A program made the position numbers and the translations under genes. A model generated the notes under the pieces. That model made no database searches. It worked only from the letters and a program-made list of their open reading frames with translations, and was not told where the DNA came from. Positions 42,081 through 61,601 of a DNA stretch of 64,000 nt are shown here, one piece after another. Location of the stretch: assembly GCF_006349365.1 (NCBI RefSeq), contig NZ_CP040899.1, positions 868,001-932,000 of the forward strand, read 5' to 3'. Origin of the DNA: Georgenia wutianyii. Its GTDB lineage: Bacteria > Actinomycetota > Actinomycetes > Actinomycetales > Actinomycetaceae. Position 1 is the stretch's first letter. Each line of letters begins with the position of its first letter.

Positions 42081-42117
42081 AAATACCTTGCCCCCCGTCC
42101 GGAGGCGGGCGTAATGT
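42081..42117 (+). promoter_or_regulatory. whiB7 promoter with WhiB7-type AT-rich element
   Basis: AAAT (42081-42084), 3 bp, TTGCCC (-35, 42088-42093), 18 bp, TAATGT (-10, 42112-42117). An AT-rich patch a few bases upstream of -35 is the hallmark of WhiB7/SigA autoregulated promoters. The identical geometry occurs before the ABC-F gene at 59868-59904. Confidence 0.7.
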
Positions 42118-42139
42118 CCTCCACGTCCGTGACCGAACA

Positions 42140-42170
42140 GGGCCCGTGCCTAGCCAGCACACGGGGGCCC
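42140..42170 (+). promoter_or_regulatory. hairpin in early whiB7 leader
   Basis: CCCGTG (42143-42148) pairs with CACGGG (42160-42165), extended by GGG/CCC across a two-base bulge. It lies 10 bp before the ribosome site of the upstream ORF and could modulate its translation. Confidence 0.45.
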
Positions 42171-42196
42171 CATGTGCGAGAGGGAGGTGAACCGCA

Positions 42197-42346
42197 GTGA
42201 CCAAGAACGTAGCCGCCGGCCGAGCACGAGCCGAGTGGGCCGGGATGCTCCGGTTCACCAGTCCCGCTGCCGGCGTCGCCGGTATGCCGGCCCGCCCTCG
42301 CCCGTACCTCGCCCCCATCGGGGGCGGCACGTTCCGGACGTCGTAG
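42197..42346 (+). CDS. whiB7 leader upstream ORF (49 codons)
   Basis: GTG start preceded by GGGAGG (42182-42187) at 9 bp, ending at TAG 42344-42346. It encodes 49 residues beginning VTKNVAAGRARAEWAGMLRF and ending GGGTFRTS. It lies about 75 nt inside the whiB7 transcript and 108 bp before whiB7. Long leaders with an upstream ORF and attenuator are established for whiB7 in other Actinobacteria, where stalled translation relieves termination. The GCCCCC-ATC-GGGGGC hairpin (42311-42325) falls inside its last codons. The start is inferred from the ribosome site. Confidence 0.6.
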   Translation: MTKNVAAGRARAEWAGMLRFTSPAAGVAGMPARPRPYLAPIGGGTFRTS

Positions 42347-42383
42347 AACAGCACCCGTTCTCCGCCGGACCGCGCCGCTCCTC

Positions 42384-42417
42384 ACTGCGGTCCACCCCTC
42401 CCGGGGAATGCCGCAGT
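42384..42417 (+). terminator. putative attenuator hairpin of whiB7
   Basis: ACTGCGG (42384-42390) pairs with CCGCAGT (42411-42417), with an inner CCC/GGGG stem. It lies after the upstream ORF and 37 bp before whiB7, where a conditional terminator would act. No U-tract follows, so it may alternatively be a plain leader stem. Confidence 0.45.
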
Positions 42418-42454
42418 CGATCCCAGACCCGGCTTCGCACCCACGGAGACACTC

Positions 42455-42793
42455 GTGCAACTCACCACCCTTCTCGACCGCCTCAGCCAGGGGTCGTCAC
42501 AGTCGTGGCCGCTCCCCGAGGAGGCGATGGCCCTCGTCCTGGAGGAGTCCACCGCGCTCGCCCCGTGCCAGGAGGCACACGACCCGGACCTGTGGTTCGC
42601 CGAGCGTCAGGCGGATGTCGAGTTCGCCAAGACGCTGTGCCGCACCTGCCCCGTGCGCGAGGCCTGCCTCGCCGGTGCCCTCGAGCGCGCGGAGCCGTGG
42701 GGCGTGTGGGGCGGCGAGGTGTTCATCGGCGGTGAGGTCGTGGCCACGAAGCGTGGTCGCGGTCGTCCCCGCAAGCACCAGCCGGCGGCCTGA
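42455..42793 (+). CDS. whiB7: WhiB7 redox-sensing transcriptional regulator
   Basis: 112 residues. Four cluster-binding cysteines: Cys38, Cys62, Cys65, Cys71 (CRTCPVREAC). The WhiB turn is EPWGVWGGE (80-88) and an AT-hook RGRPRK sits at 102-107. The AT-hook separates WhiB7 from other WhiB proteins; it binds the AT-rich patch upstream of target -35 boxes together with SigA. WhiB7 activates intrinsic antibiotic-resistance genes on ribosomal stress. GTG start with GGAG 7 bp upstream. The context uvrD2-whiB7 matches Rv3198c-Rv3197A. Confidence 0.95.
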   Translation: MQLTTLLDRLSQGSSQSWPLPEEAMALVLEESTALAPCQEAHDPDLWFAERQADVEFAKTLCRTCPVREACLAGALERAEPWGVWGGEVFIGGEVVATKRGRGRPRKHQPAA

Positions 42794-57106: not shown

Positions 57107-58108
57107 ATGCGGAAGATCATCAACAAGCCCGAGAACTTCGTCGACGAGATGGTGGAGGGCATCCTCCTGGCCCACCCGGACCAGCTGAAGACCCCTGGCG
57201 ACGACCGCCGCATCCTCGTGCGGGCCGACGCCCCCGTCGCCGGCAAGGTCGGCATCGTCACCGGAGGTGGCTCCGGGCACCTGCCGCTGTTCAAGGGCTA
57301 CGTGGGCAAGGGCCTCGCGTCGGGCGTCGCGATCGGCAACGTGTTCAGCTCCCCGAGCGCCCAGCAGTGCTTCGAGGCCACCAAGGCGGTCGACGGCGGC
57401 CGTGGCGTCCTCTACCTGTACGGCAACTACGGGGGTGACGTCTTCAACTTCGACCTCGCCGCGGACCTCGCCGAGCTCGAGGACATCGAGACCCGCACCG
57501 TCCTCGGCCGCGACGACGTCGCGAGCCAGCCGAAGGACCGCAAGCACGACCGCCGCGGGGTCGCCGGGATCTTCTTCGCCTACAAGGCGGCCGGAGCGGC
57601 CGCGGAGCGCGGCGACAGCCTGGAGCAGGTGGCGGCGGTGGCGGAGGACGTCGTCGAGCACACGGCGACGATGGGCATCGGGCTCGCCCCGACGATCCTG
57701 CCGACCACCGGTGAGCCCAGCTTCGTGCTGCCCGAGGGCGAGATGGAGGTCGGTATCGGCATCCACGGCGAGCCCGGCTTCCACCGTGGGCCCCTGGAGA
57801 CGGCCGACGAGATCACCGAGCGGATCGTGGCCGCCCTGGTGGCGGACCTCGAGCTCACGGACGGTGACCGGGTGGCCGTGCTCGTCAACGGCCTGGGCGC
57901 CACGCCCCTCGAGGAGCTGTACGTCATGTACCGCCGGGTCCACCAGGTTCTCCAGGACCTCGGCGTGACCATCGAACGCAGGTACATCGGTGAGTACGCG
58001 ACCAGCCTGGAGATGGCGGGCGCGTCCATCTCGCTCCTCGCGCTCGACGACGACCGGCTCGCCCTGCTCGACGCCCCCGCGGCGTCCCCGTTCTTCCAGG
58101 AGGTCTGA
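57107..58108 (+). CDS. dhaK: dihydroxyacetone kinase-type subunit DhaK
   Basis: 333 residues. It binds the keto-sugar covalently through His in VGIGIHGEPGFHRGPL (about 217). VGIVTGGGSGHLPLFKGYVGKG and GNYGGDVFNFDLAADLAE carry the Gly-rich loop and the catalytic Asp. Family: phosphorylates dihydroxyacetone, and relatives act on erythrulose or apulose. No PTS partner DhaM is adjacent, so with DhaL it may use ATP directly. GAAAGGAA lies upstream of the ATG. Its operon with an importer argues for a transported keto-sugar substrate. Confidence 0.93.
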   Translation: MRKIINKPENFVDEMVEGILLAHPDQLKTPGDDRRILVRADAPVAGKVGIVTGGGSGHLPLFKGYVGKGLASGVAIGNVFSSPSAQQCFEATKAVDGGRGVLYLYGNYGGDVFNFDLAADLAELEDIETRTVLGRDDVASQPKDRKHDRRGVAGIFFAYKAAGAAAERGDSLEQVAAVAEDVVEHTATMGIGLAPTILPTTGEPSFVLPEGEMEVGIGIHGEPGFHRGPLETADEITERIVAALVADLELTDGDRVAVLVNGLGATPLEELYVMYRRVHQVLQDLGVTIERRYIGEYATSLEMAGASISLLALDDDRLALLDAPAASPFFQEV

Positions 58109-58113
58109 GAACC

Positions 58114-58740
58114 ATGCACTCCACCACCCTCATCGGCACGATCCAGCGCAGCCTCGCCGAGCTGGTCGGCTACGCCGACGAGCTGCGCGACCTCGACCAG
58201 GCGCTGGGTGACGGCGACCTCGGCATCACGGTCACGCTCGGCGCGAACGCCGTCATCGAGGCGCTGAACCACATCTCGCCCGAGGCGACCCCGGCCGAGA
58301 TCGCGCGCGCGGCCGCCAAGGCGTTCGCCAACGCGAACCCCTCCACCATGGCGGCGCTGGTCGCCGGCGGACTCCTCGCGGGCTCCAAGTCCTGGGCCGA
58401 CGTCGAGGACGTCGACGTCGCCGCTGCAGCGGCGTTCGTCCGGGCGGCGGGGGAGAACATCGCCCAGCGCGGCAAGACACAGCTCGGCGACAAGACGATC
58501 CTCGACGCCATCATGCCCGCCGCCGACGCGCTGGCAGGGGCCCGGGACGGCGAGACGGGGATCGCCGACGCGATCGCGGCGGCCGAGCAGGCCGTCGTCG
58601 AGACCCGTGGCCTCCAGTCCCGGCGTGGCCGGGCCTCCTGGCTCCAGGAGCGCAGCATCGGCCTGCAGGACCCGGGAGCGACGGCGATGCTGCGCTTCCT
58701 GCAGTCCTGGCAGCAGGCCGGGGTCGCGGCTGTCGGATGA
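58114..58740 (+). CDS. dhaL: dihydroxyacetone kinase-type subunit DhaL
   Basis: 208 residues, all-alpha nucleotide-binding barrel. The Mg/ADP-binding aspartates lie in LDQALGDGDLGITVT; the usual GDGDHG is GDGDLG here, so the His after the third Asp is Leu. GKTQLGDKTILDAIMPAADAL and RGRASWLQERSIGLQDPGATA complete the site. It supplies the phosphoryl group to substrate bound on DhaK. Five bases after dhaK, and 4-bp overlap with the next gene. Confidence 0.92.
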   Translation: MHSTTLIGTIQRSLAELVGYADELRDLDQALGDGDLGITVTLGANAVIEALNHISPEATPAEIARAAAKAFANANPSTMAALVAGGLLAGSKSWADVEDVDVAAAAAFVRAAGENIAQRGKTQLGDKTILDAIMPAADALAGARDGETGIADAIAAAEQAVVETRGLQSRRGRASWLQERSIGLQDPGATAMLRFLQSWQQAGVAAVG

Positions 58741-59615
58741 GCGCCGTCGCCGTCCTCGGGCTGGGGACGATGGGGCGGGGCATGGCCACCAACCTCGTCT
58801 CCGCCGGTCACGCGGTGACCGTGTGGAACCGCTCGGAGGTGTCCGGCGTGGCCGGCGCGCGCTCGGCAGGGTCGATCGCCGAGGCCGTGCGGGGCCAGGA
58901 CGTCGTGCTCTACTGCCTGTCCGACGACGCCGCCGTGCGCGACGTCGCGCTCGGGGCGGGGGGTGTGCTCGCGCACGTCGCGGCACCGACGGTGGTGGTG
59001 GACATGTCCACCGTCAGCCTCTCGCTGAGCGAGGAGGAGCACGCCGCGTTCGCCGAGCGGGACGTCGACCTGCTCGACGCCCCCGTCTTCGGCTCCAGGG
59101 GCGAGGCGGCGTCCGGCGGGCTGTGGGTGGTGGTCGGCGGCGACGCCGGTGCCCTCGACCGGGCGCGGCCGGCGCTCGAGGCCGTCAGCGCCACGGTGCA
59201 CCACCTGGGGCCCGCCACCTCGGGCGTGCGCATGAAGCTGGTGGGAAACCTGCTCGTCGCGGCGCAGCTCCAGTCCCTGGGTGAGGCGCTCACGCTGGCG
59301 CGCGCGGCCGGGCTCGACTTGCGCACGGTGCTCGACGTCGTCTCGGTGGCGGACTTCCGCACGCCGATCTACGACGGTGTCGGTGCGGCCGTGCTCGCCG
59401 ACGACTACTCCCCGGCGTTCGCGCTCCGCCTCATGCACAAGGACGTGGGCCTCATCGAGGACCTGGCCGGACGGGTGGGCGCACCGGTTCCGGGCGTCGG
59501 GGTCGTGGCGCAGACGCTGGAGGACGCGATGGCGGCCGGGCTCGGTGGGCAGAACGCCTCGGCGCTGATCCGCGTGCTCGCCGGCCGCGCCGGCGTGTCC
59601 CTGGCACAGCCCTGA
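58737..59615 (+). CDS. NAD(P)-dependent 3-hydroxyisobutyrate-dehydrogenase-family oxidoreductase
   Basis: 292 residues. The Rossmann loop is VLGLGTMGRGMATNLVSAGH, substrate motif DAPVFGSRGEAASGGLWVVVGG (a variant of the D-x-P-V-S-G-G sequence) and catalytic Lys in GVRMKLVGNLLV. Members oxidise short beta-hydroxyacids or reduce semialdehydes such as tartronate semialdehyde. It overlaps dhaL by 4 bp, so it belongs to the operon. It may oxidise a hydroxyacid linked to the imported sugar, but no step is proven. Confidence 0.88.
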   Translation: MSAVAVLGLGTMGRGMATNLVSAGHAVTVWNRSEVSGVAGARSAGSIAEAVRGQDVVLYCLSDDAAVRDVALGAGGVLAHVAAPTVVVDMSTVSLSLSEEEHAAFAERDVDLLDAPVFGSRGEAASGGLWVVVGGDAGALDRARPALEAVSATVHHLGPATSGVRMKLVGNLLVAAQLQSLGEALTLARAAGLDLRTVLDVVSVADFRTPIYDGVGAAVLADDYSPAFALRLMHKDVGLIEDLAGRVGAPVPGVGVVAQTLEDAMAAGLGGQNASALIRVLAGRAGVSLAQP

Positions 59616-59616
59616 C

Positions 59617-59666
59617 CCGTCCGCGGGCAGCACGTCCGGAACGCCGGACGTGCCGCCCGCGGACGG
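59617..59666 (+). terminator. strong terminator of the ABC-dhaK operon
   Basis: CCGTCCGCGGGC (59617-59628) pairs with GCCCGCGGACGG (59655-59666), and CACGTCCGG pairs with CCGGACGTG inside: 21 pairs with one AG/CC internal mismatch, an AACG loop, beginning 2 bp after the stop. Confidence 0.9.
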
Positions 59667-59867
59667 CCGGTCACGACGCCGGCTCGGCACGGGGCGTGGT
59701 GACGGCCCGAGAGGTGGCGGCGCCCGGCCGCGCGCGTCCCTCGCGGCGCGAGCACGACGATGTCGTGGACAACGCCCGGGTCGCGGGCCGCCGCGCAGGA
59801 CCCGGAGGTCCTCGGCCGTCTCGGCGACGTGGGTCCGGGTGGCCGCACGCGGCTGGACCGCGCCCGG
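59667..59867. other. intergenic stretch before the ABC-F promoter
   Basis: About 200 bp of GC-rich sequence between the operon terminator and the promoter. I see no credible gene, repeat or operator. Confidence 0.6.
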
Positions 59868-59904
59868 AAATCGCTTGGCCGCGCGGGTGGCGCCCCTGCA
59901 CACT
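59868..59904 (+). promoter_or_regulatory. WhiB7-type promoter of the ABC-F gene
   Basis: AAAT (59868-59871), 3 bp, TTGGCC (59875-59880), 18 bp, CACACT (59899-59904). The geometry AAAT-N3-TTG-N18-box is the same as for whiB7 at 42081-42117, and I found no third AAAT-N3-TTG near a gene start. ABC-F resistance proteins belong to the WhiB7 regulon elsewhere. Confidence 0.6.
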
Positions 59905-59960
59905 GCCTCGTGTCCCCGCGGGCCGGCCGCGTGTGTGAGGGGACGGAGCAGAGGACTGCG

Positions 59961-59996
59961 ATGACAGGACCGGAGACCACCTCTCCAGCGCGCTGA
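59961..59996 (+). CDS. leader peptide of the ABC-F gene (11 codons)
   Basis: ATG preceded by AGAGGA at 5 bp, encoding MTGPETTSPAR then TGA. It lies about 50 nt into the predicted transcript and 48 bp before the ABC-F start. Directly after it a CGCCC/GGGCG stem (59997-60011) could occlude the downstream region. Short peptides in this position regulate ABC-F and other ribosome-protection genes by antibiotic-induced stalling. Translation has not been shown. Confidence 0.5.
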   Translation: MTGPETTSPAR

Positions 59997-60044
59997 CGCC
60001 CCCCCCGGGCGCGGCGCGACGTCCCGCACCCGGAAGGTCCTCCC

Positions 60045-61601
60045 GTGTCCACCAGCCCCTCCGTCGTCCTGCACGACGTGTCCTTCGCCTGGCCCGACGG
60101 CACCTCCGCCCTCGACCGGGTGAGCGGCGCGTTCGGTCGCGGGCGCACCGGGCTCGTCGGTGCCAACGGCGCCGGCAAGTCCACGCTGCTCCGCCTCGTC
60201 GCCGGCCGGCTCACGCCCACCGGCGGCTCGCTCGCCGTCACCGGCAGCGTCGACCACCTGCCGCAACGGCTCACCCGCGCACCCGGAGCGACCCTCGCCG
60301 ACCTCCTCGGCGTGCGCGTCACCCGCGACGCGCTGCGCGCCGTCGAGGCAGGGTCGGTCGACCCGGCCCACTACGACGCCGTCGGCACCGACTGGGACGT
60401 CGAGGGCCGCGCGGCCGCCCAGCTCGCGGCCCTCGACCTGCCCGCCGACCTCGACCGCCCGGTCACCGCGCTGTCGGGAGGGGAGGCGGTGCTCGCCGCC
60501 CTCGCCGGGCTGCTGCTGCGCCGGGCGGACGTCGCGCTGCTCGACGAGCCGACGAACAACCTCGACCTCGACTCGCGCGAGCGCGTCTACGACGTCGTGC
60601 GGCAGTGGCACGGCACGCTGGTCGTGGTCAGCCACGACCTCACGCTGCTCGACCTCGTGGACGAGACGGCCGAGCTGCGCGCCGGCGCGCTCACGACGTT
60701 CGGCGGCCCGTACAGCGACTACCGGGAGTGGGTGGGCACGCAGCAGGAGGCTGCCCGCCAGGCGCTGCGCACCGCCGACCAGGCGCTGCGCAAGGTGCAG
60801 CGTGAGCAGGTGAGGGCCGAGGAGCGGTTCGCGCACAGCCGTCGGCAGGGGCGCACCGACCGTGCCGAGGGCAGGTACCCGCCCATCGTCCTCGGCGGTC
60901 GCAAGAACGCGGCGGAGCGCTCGCAGGGCGCGCGCAGGGACGCGCTGGCCGGCCGGCTGGAGGCGGCCCGTGCGACGGTCGACCTCACCGCGGACGCGGT
61001 GCGGGACGACGACACGATCCGCGTCGACCTGCCCGACCCGCACGTGCCCCGCGGCCGCCGGCTCGCGCGTCTGCCGAGCAGCGACGGACGCGACGTCGTC
61101 CTCCAGGGGCCCGAGCGCATCGCCCTCGTCGGGGCGAACGGCGTGGGGAAGACGACGCTGCTGCGCGGCCTGGTCCCGCGGCTCACGGTCCGCGTCGGCT
61201 ACCTCCCGCAGCAGGTCGACCTCCCCGAGGACGCCTCGGTGCTCGACGTCGTGCGCGTGGCCGCCCCGGACGTGCCACCGGGTGAGGTCCGCCGCCGGCT
61301 GGCCCGGCTGCTCGTCCGCGGGGACACGGTCGACCGCCCCGTCGGGAGCCTGTCCGGTGGAGAGCGCTTCCGTGTCGCGCTCGCGCGGCTGCTGCTCGCC
61401 GACCCGCCGCCGGAGCTGCTCGTCCTCGACGAGCCGACGAACGACCTCGACATCCCGAGCGTCGACCGGCTCGTCGGGGCGCTCACCGTCTACCGCGGGG
61501 GGCTGCTCGTCGTGAGCCACGACGGTGCCTTCCTCGACCGTCTCGCCCTCGACGCCGTCGTCCGCCTCACCGCCGACGGGCGGCTCGAGCAGGTGGCCTG
61601 A
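60045..61601 (+). CDS. ABC-F family ATPase (ribosome-protection type candidate)
   Basis: 518 residues, two ABC domains and no membrane segment. Domain 1: Walker A GANGAGKSTLL, LSGGEAVLAALAGLLL, LLDEPTNNLDLD. Domain 2: GANGVGKTTLLRG, LSGGERFRVALARLLL, LVLDEPTNDLDIP. The linker (about 240-330) is Arg/Gln/Ala-rich (RTADQALRKVQREQVRAEERFAHSRRQGRTDR). It differs from EttA in this window: shorter, and a different N-terminus. The leader peptide and WhiB7-type promoter support drug- or stress-inducible ribosome protection. GTG start, GGAAGG 7 bp upstream. Confidence 0.85.
   Translation: MSTSPSVVLHDVSFAWPDGTSALDRVSGAFGRGRTGLVGANGAGKSTLLRLVAGRLTPTGGSLAVTGSVDHLPQRLTRAPGATLADLLGVRVTRDALRAVEAGSVDPAHYDAVGTDWDVEGRAAAQLAALDLPADLDRPVTALSGGEAVLAALAGLLLRRADVALLDEPTNNLDLDSRERVYDVVRQWHGTLVVVSHDLTLLDLVDETAELRAGALTTFGGPYSDYREWVGTQQEAARQALRTADQALRKVQREQVRAEERFAHSRRQGRTDRAEGRYPPIVLGGRKNAAERSQGARRDALAGRLEAARATVDLTADAVRDDDTIRVDLPDPHVPRGRRLARLPSSDGRDVVLQGPERIALVGANGVGKTTLLRGLVPRLTVRVGYLPQQVDLPEDASVLDVVRVAAPDVPPGEVRRRLARLLVRGDTVDRPVGSLSGGERFRVALARLLLADPPPELLVLDEPTNDLDIPSVDRLVGALTVYRGGLLVVSHDGAFLDRLALDAVVRLTADGRLEQVA

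Follow-up and report, generated by a model that had tools for sequence, protein, structure and literature searches.

A chromosomal ABC-F gene with a WhiB7-type promoter and a conserved short-ORF leader in Georgenia wutianyii

The ABC-F locus and its promoter

The analyzed window (the whole stretch of DNA under study, 64,000 nucleotides) carries a gene for an ABC-F ATPase (Table 1), a family noted for protecting ribosomes against antibiotics. The protein resembles solved ABC-F proteins of both the housekeeping and the resistance type. Because its score against the ribosomal protection family NF000355 of NCBIfam (275.6 bits) lies under the cut-off of 380, we class it as ABC-F and infer a resistance role, which is likely. 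Just 5' of the gene (57107-59615) are DhaK and DhaL, the subunits of dihydroxyacetone kinase, and a 3-hydroxyisobutyrate dehydrogenase-like gene. The intergenic region that follows (59616-60044) contains the promoter, AAAT-N3-TTGGCC-N18-CACACT, at 59868-59904, and whiB7 itself is located 18 kb from it. Between the whiB7 promoter and its gene there is a long leader (42118-42454) with a short ORF found by eye (GTG at 42197, 49 codons), an arrangement that has been described for whiB7 genes.

Table 1. Coordinates of the features in the window
Feature	Position	Strand	Basis
whiB7 promoter, same geometry as that of the ABC-F gene	42081..42117	+	AAAT at 42081, N3, TTGCCC, 18 bp, TAATGT
whiB7	42455..42793	+	Motifs GVWGGE and RGRGRPRK (hook)
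AT box AAAT of the WhiB7-type promoter	59868..59871	+	Motif counts; W-rich box in three genus orthologs
-35 element TTGGCC, 3 bp 3' of the AT box	59875..59880	+	Orthologs have TTGCCC/TTGCCT
-10 element CACACT, 18-bp spacer	59899..59904	+	Orthologs have CAGGCT
Predicted transcript start and 5' hairpin GTCCCC...GGGGAC	59911..59944	+	Folding; start placed by the 7-8 bp rule given in PMC7157823
Shine-Dalgarno-like AGAGGA of the leader ORF	59950..59955	+	Sequence
Leader ORF MTGPETTSPAR*, 11 codons and stop, 36 nt	59961..59996	+	ORF; gap-free in 4/4 genus sequences
GC hairpin, end of the leader ORF (CGCGCTGACGCCC) with GGGCGCGGCGCG	59989..60018	+	Folding; element CGCGCTGA in 32/58 upstream regions
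Shine-Dalgarno-like GGAAGG of the ABC-F gene	60032..60037	+	Sequence
ABC-F ATPase, 518 aa, GTG start	60045..61601	+	Related to ribosomal protection proteins

The original prediction held that this promoter copies the geometry of the whiB7 promoter and that both spacings were unlikely to coincide by chance. The first point is borne out, as AAAT, N3, a TTG-type -35 and an 18-bp spacer are found at both. The second agrees with the counts of the pattern AAATNNNTTGNCC, which matches twice within the 64-kb window against 0.01 expected from shuffles. The genome-wide search that the prediction called for gave the same picture, with exactly two sites in the whole genome (3,454,625 bases, GC-rich, one contig), one at whiB7 and the other at the ABC-F gene, and none in the reversed control. 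As AAATNNNTTGNCC was derived from these two promoters, its count alone is circular, and the independent test is the comparison with other genomes. A looser pattern, AAAW-N3-TTG-N3-N15..18-YANNNT, has three matches in the genome (none in the control), at whiB7, at the ABC-F gene and before a methyltransferase-like ORF, and 15 across six genomes of the genus against two in the control.

The third of these sites lies at genome positions 2321549-2321585 on the minus strand (L170, 2319800-2321900), and its -10 ends 42 nt 5' of an ORF (MPLIPGELDTHVW...) that we take to be methyltransferase-like from the motifs of that fold; no leader ORF was seen by eye between them. This gene is a possible further WhiB7 target. 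Another WhiB7-type site, AAATCCGTTGTCC-N18-CAGGCT, occurs in two genus genomes (G001 and G005) near position 1501 of loci L083 and L087, on the minus strand and about 130 nt 5' of a conserved membrane-protein ORF (MVDLITALPEAF...), presumably DedA-like. The same motif is present in a third genus genome, at G003:C120:347539, and no counterpart of it is among the AAAW-pattern matches of the window's own genome.

The published consensus of WblC/WhiB7 promoters consists of GAAAWY, 3 bp, a -35 TKGMNN, a spacer of 16-19 bp and a -10 TANNNT (PMC7157823). In GGAAATCGCTTGGCC and in its relatives, a W-rich box stands 3 bp 5' of a TTG/TGG -35. The spacer of the ABC-F promoter, at 18 bp, falls within the consensus range, while its -35 has G as the fourth base, a position given as M in the consensus, and its -10, CACACT (CAGGCT in the relatives), departs from TANNNT.

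ABC-F orthologs were found in three of the five other genus genomes compared (76-78% identity), and none at E 1e-60 in G003 or in the 57%-complete G004. All three orthologs are preceded by a W-rich box (AATT, AATT, TATT), N3, TTGCC[CT], 18 bp and CAGGCT, and box-N3-TTG-N18-CANNCT is thus common to the four genus sequences; searches with AAAW miss the orthologs because AATT or TATT replaces AAAT. The sequence directly upstream of the gene in these relatives is unlike the DhaK/DhaL surroundings of the window and, by eye, similar among the three of them, so promoter, leader and gene have been held together despite changed surroundings.

Leader ORF, hairpin and the element CGCGCTGA

The original prediction also had the transcript encode MTGPETTSPAR and then form a GC stem before the ABC-F start, and both features are in place (Table 1). 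The final codons of the ORF, GCG CGC TGA, are one arm of the hairpin, and its stop codon lies inside the hairpin, 48 nt 5' of the ABC-F start. The Shine-Dalgarno-like AGAGGA is present in three of the four genus sequences, and AGGA in all four (by eye). The three orthologs have a leader ORF of the same 36 nt, MTDLRSA[PTA]PAR*, followed by the hairpin arms. When the four sequences are aligned, the ORF has no gaps in its 36 columns, 27 of which are invariant, and the flanking stretches are gapped on both sides. Between our sequence and the relatives there are no synonymous and six replacement codons, so that the length, start and end of the ORF are conserved and the inner peptide is not. Peptide-specific stalling finds no support, given this variation of the interior by replacement codons.

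Folding was less informative about a possible switch. Taken as a whole, the leader is not predicted to fold more stably than shuffled sequence (z -0.87). The Shine-Dalgarno of the ABC-F gene is partly paired, with a predicted unpaired fraction of 0.32 that becomes 0.33-0.54 when a ribosome is placed along the codons of the leader ORF. Across 11 leaders folded with the ribosome on each codon, no consistent change of Shine-Dalgarno exposure was obtained and our leader differed from the others, and a simple Shine-Dalgarno masking switch was rejected for lack of a consistent shift. An intrinsic terminator was likewise discarded, as no U-tract terminator was found in the leader. The covariance models of Rfam 15 gave no match up to E 1 in 59700-60200, and in eight related loci the sole match was a tRNA. 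In one whiB7-negative genome, a tRNA gene (L131:1386-1457:+, RF00005) adjoins the ABC-F gene.

To follow the leader through the order, ABC-F relatives were collected at E 1e-110 or better, which 55 of 396 genomes had. The 58 upstream regions read came in three sets (13, 26 and 19 of 20 fetched; L160 was excluded, its contig ending there), which omit six of the 57 match rows of this search (the second match in G217 and those in G392, G231, G465, G462 and G517). The element CGCGCTGA, the end of our leader ORF, is present in 32 of the 58 regions, against a shuffle mean of 1.25 and maximum of 5. Short ORFs resembling ours also occur in ABC-F leaders of other families. In family f8 the element again ends the leader ORF (VTDTAHGPTTSR, MTGNRSAPRPAR), and one f8 leader (L120) has almost the entire 5' hairpin of ours, with two differences in 36 bases by eye. 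In family f19 the ORF ends earlier (e.g., LKLIDASAI*, or just two codons) and the element is retained, for which reason it seems to be an RNA element and not merely the end of a peptide.

Among 33 regions that carry the element, one variant spelling included, 19 have its complement (GTCAGCGC, GTCGGCGC, GTCAGTGC) near the start of ABC-F, compared with 3 of the 25 that lack it (A:B association, P = 3.7e-4, for a complement pattern written after the sequences had been read). Tested singly, duplexes between CGCGCTGA and sequence 3' of it outperformed shuffles (P under 0.05) at 12 of 33 places. None of the four places of our genus did so; there the canonical complement is missing and the element pairs with a different GC arm. 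A B:C hairpin was considered as a general competitor and set aside as weak, with a partner-swap test of P = 0.048 over 24 leaders, one of them (L099) anchored wrongly, and as not seen in our own genus. Among 213 genomes of the family, 15 contained GCGCTGA...TCAGCGC...CTGAC, and the places in G064 and G100 are at the ABC-F gene. Neither the promoter nor CGCGCTGA appeared in the 11 distant actinobacterial ABC-F genes read out of 80 loci (33-37% identity; 0/11). A second class of leader, with the ORF MEIEVDRA* or MELIEVDRA* (L096, L098, L131 and L138) and without CGCGCTGA, is placed elsewhere in the ABC-F tree.

It is unlikely, in our opinion, that the promoter is the only control, with the short ORF and the hairpin as side effects of GC richness in the 5' region and the drug response passing entirely through WhiB7. 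Such an explanation would agree with a leader stability not above shuffles, with the absence of a terminator or a clear folding switch, with own-genus duplexes that are not better than shuffles and with an ORF interior that differs by replacement codons alone. However, the length of the ORF is constant in the four genus sequences, with gap columns confined to the flanks, and CGCGCTGA, together with its partner, is met again in other families, even without WhiB7-type promoters.

Co-occurrence with whiB7 and proposed regulation

At E 1e-14, whiB7 was detected in 25 of the 57 genomes, and the C-terminal hook was recognized by pattern in 28 of the 29 whiB7 matches (the exception was L177). With the promoter defined as [W4 or AAA]-N3-T[TG]G-N3-N16..19-NANNNT, it was found upstream of ABC-F in 15 of the 26 cases where the genome has whiB7 and in none of the 32 where it does not (Fisher 2.6e-7, for related species and a post hoc pattern). 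Shuffles averaged 0.1 matches in the positive group and 0.5 in the negative, and the positive regions gave none when reversed or read on the opposite strand. The split persisted with a narrower pattern (7/26 versus 0/32) and with the box and -35 alone (14/26 versus 2/32). The narrowest pattern, the first one used, picked up six of the 58 regions, where shuffles averaged 0.12 with a maximum of 3, and overlooked our own promoter because of its TTGG. All these patterns were fixed post hoc, with the sequences already read. As the whiB7-negative regions are more AT-rich (63% versus 72% GC), GC content acts against the 15/26 versus 0/32 split.

Eleven of the 26 whiB7-positive regions lack the promoter pattern, and six of those (L130, L134 and L140-L143) belong to a part of the tree that is also without CGCGCTGA, the one with the MEIEVDRA* leader. 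On the gene tree, which covers the 39 of 58 regions with the gene inside the locus, whiB7 shows six changes and the promoter four; of three well-supported independent pairs, one agrees and two show no difference, too few for a test. CGCGCTGA has no such split, being present in 15 of 26 whiB7-positive and 17 of 32 whiB7-negative regions. Since the element occurs in both groups and the promoter solely in the whiB7-positive one, it is the leader that seems widespread, with the WhiB7 promoter as an apparent add-on.

This near-equal frequency of the element, the CACACT -10 and the few phylogenetically independent contrasts could suggest that an attenuator controls ABC-F alone and that the AT box is a chance or plain promoter feature. 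We give this explanation slightly less credit than that of a promoter acting by itself, as it has to contend with a motif that is near-unique in the genome, a spacing conserved in the four genus sequences and promoters confined to whiB7-carrying genomes among the 58 regions. These same three observations bear on the original claim that the ABC-F gene is a WhiB7 regulon member, which by comparison is well supported.

Our preferred reading, which we consider probable, is one of two inputs: the ABC-F gene, located on the chromosome and belonging to the WhiB7 regulon, would answer both WhiB7 and, by way of its leader, stalled ribosomes. WhiB7, produced under ribosome stress, would bind the AT box, as the geometry, conservation and co-occurrence with whiB7 suggest, and would help the housekeeping sigma factor to initiate at the weak -35 and -10, raising initiation at the promoter. 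We propose this step because of the comparison together with the published WblC/WhiB7 promoter model (PMC7157823). The message would then open with the leader, in which the last codons of the 11-codon ORF double as a hairpin arm in front of the site where ribosomes bind for ABC-F. Ribosomes reaching the leader stop codon would cover this arm, and one held early by a drug would free it for downstream pairing, so the position of the ribosome on the short ORF may gate the transcript or its translation and in this way set the amount of ABC-F. The gating step is put forward because of the conservation and by analogy with known ABC-F leaders (PMC12421871, PMC10201436), and termination that depends on Rho or needs no U-tract might be compatible with it. 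Occupancy of the AT box by WhiB7, translation of the leader ORF, the switch with its direction, and the identity of the sensed drugs are all proposals of this model. Two-level control, as originally predicted, is supported as regards the promoter and the conserved place and length of the leader ORF; the drug-dependent relief stays a conjecture, with no U-tract terminator and no consistent Shine-Dalgarno switch behind it. A hairpin that only stabilizes the message, or a barrier coupling ORF and gene by reinitiation, in either case with no drug sensing, would explain a leader stop codon inside the hairpin at that distance from the ABC-F start, but it is very improbable, as ABC-F possesses its own GGAAGG site and CGCGCTGA persists in f19, where the ORF ends earlier.

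More tentatively, and as slightly less likely than not, the CGCGCTGA leader may represent an undescribed family of ribosome-sensing attenuators, attached to one group of ABC-F genes across the order and predating the WhiB7 input, which whiB7-less lineages would keep under an ordinary promoter and whiB7 lineages under one responsive to WhiB7. In that case the whiB7-deletion experiment would already have been performed by evolution, and what is sensed would be the position of the ribosome and not a specific stalling peptide.

Relation to known systems

The combination of a WhiB7 activator with a uORF on an ABC-F gene is not new in kind. In Streptomyces coelicolor, are5sc codes for an ABC-F of the ARE5 subfamily, belongs to the WblC/WhiB7 regulon and has the uORF MLV and a predicted terminator/antiterminator (PMC12421871). 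Our locus would share with it the two-level design of a WhiB7-family activator and a uORF leader, a likeness in control that does not imply the ARE5 subfamily for the ABC-F of the window. Unlike the are5sc leader as described there, ours has 11 codons, ends in a GC hairpin with CGCGCTGA, shows no terminator and is known from its sequence alone.

In mycobacteria, the ABC-F genes MAB_2355c and MAB_1846 are activated by WhiB7 (PMC10727445), and rv1473/ocrA is under WhiB7 control according to the title of the work cited for it. They are similar to ours in having a resistance-type ABC-F under WhiB7-type activation, which in our case is read from the sequence, and differ from it in that no leader ORF is named for them in the accounts consulted. 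The ABC-F genes vmlR, cplR and lsaA of Bacillota are controlled by uORF attenuators of three to four residues, with a U-tract terminator in cplR (PMC10201436). These share with our leader a short uORF and a hairpin before the ABC-F site; they differ in the length of the uORF, in the terminator of cplR and in that the description names no WhiB7, and stalling is a feature of the Bacillota systems. The leader of whiB7/wblC is also a uORF leader beneath a WhiB7-type promoter (PMC10727445), but it controls the regulator itself and has a rho-independent terminator.

No description of the CGCGCTGA leader was found in the literature, mainly in the main text of freely readable papers, and the leader seems to be undescribed and common to several related genera. 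It adds a leader unmatched by Rfam 15. Should the preferred reading hold, a general alarm (WhiB7) and the gene's own ribosome sensor would be stacked on one resistance-type gene, as two layers gained and lost separately. The set of leaders, drawn from whiB7-positive and whiB7-negative genomes alike, makes the division of labor between these layers directly testable with reporters.
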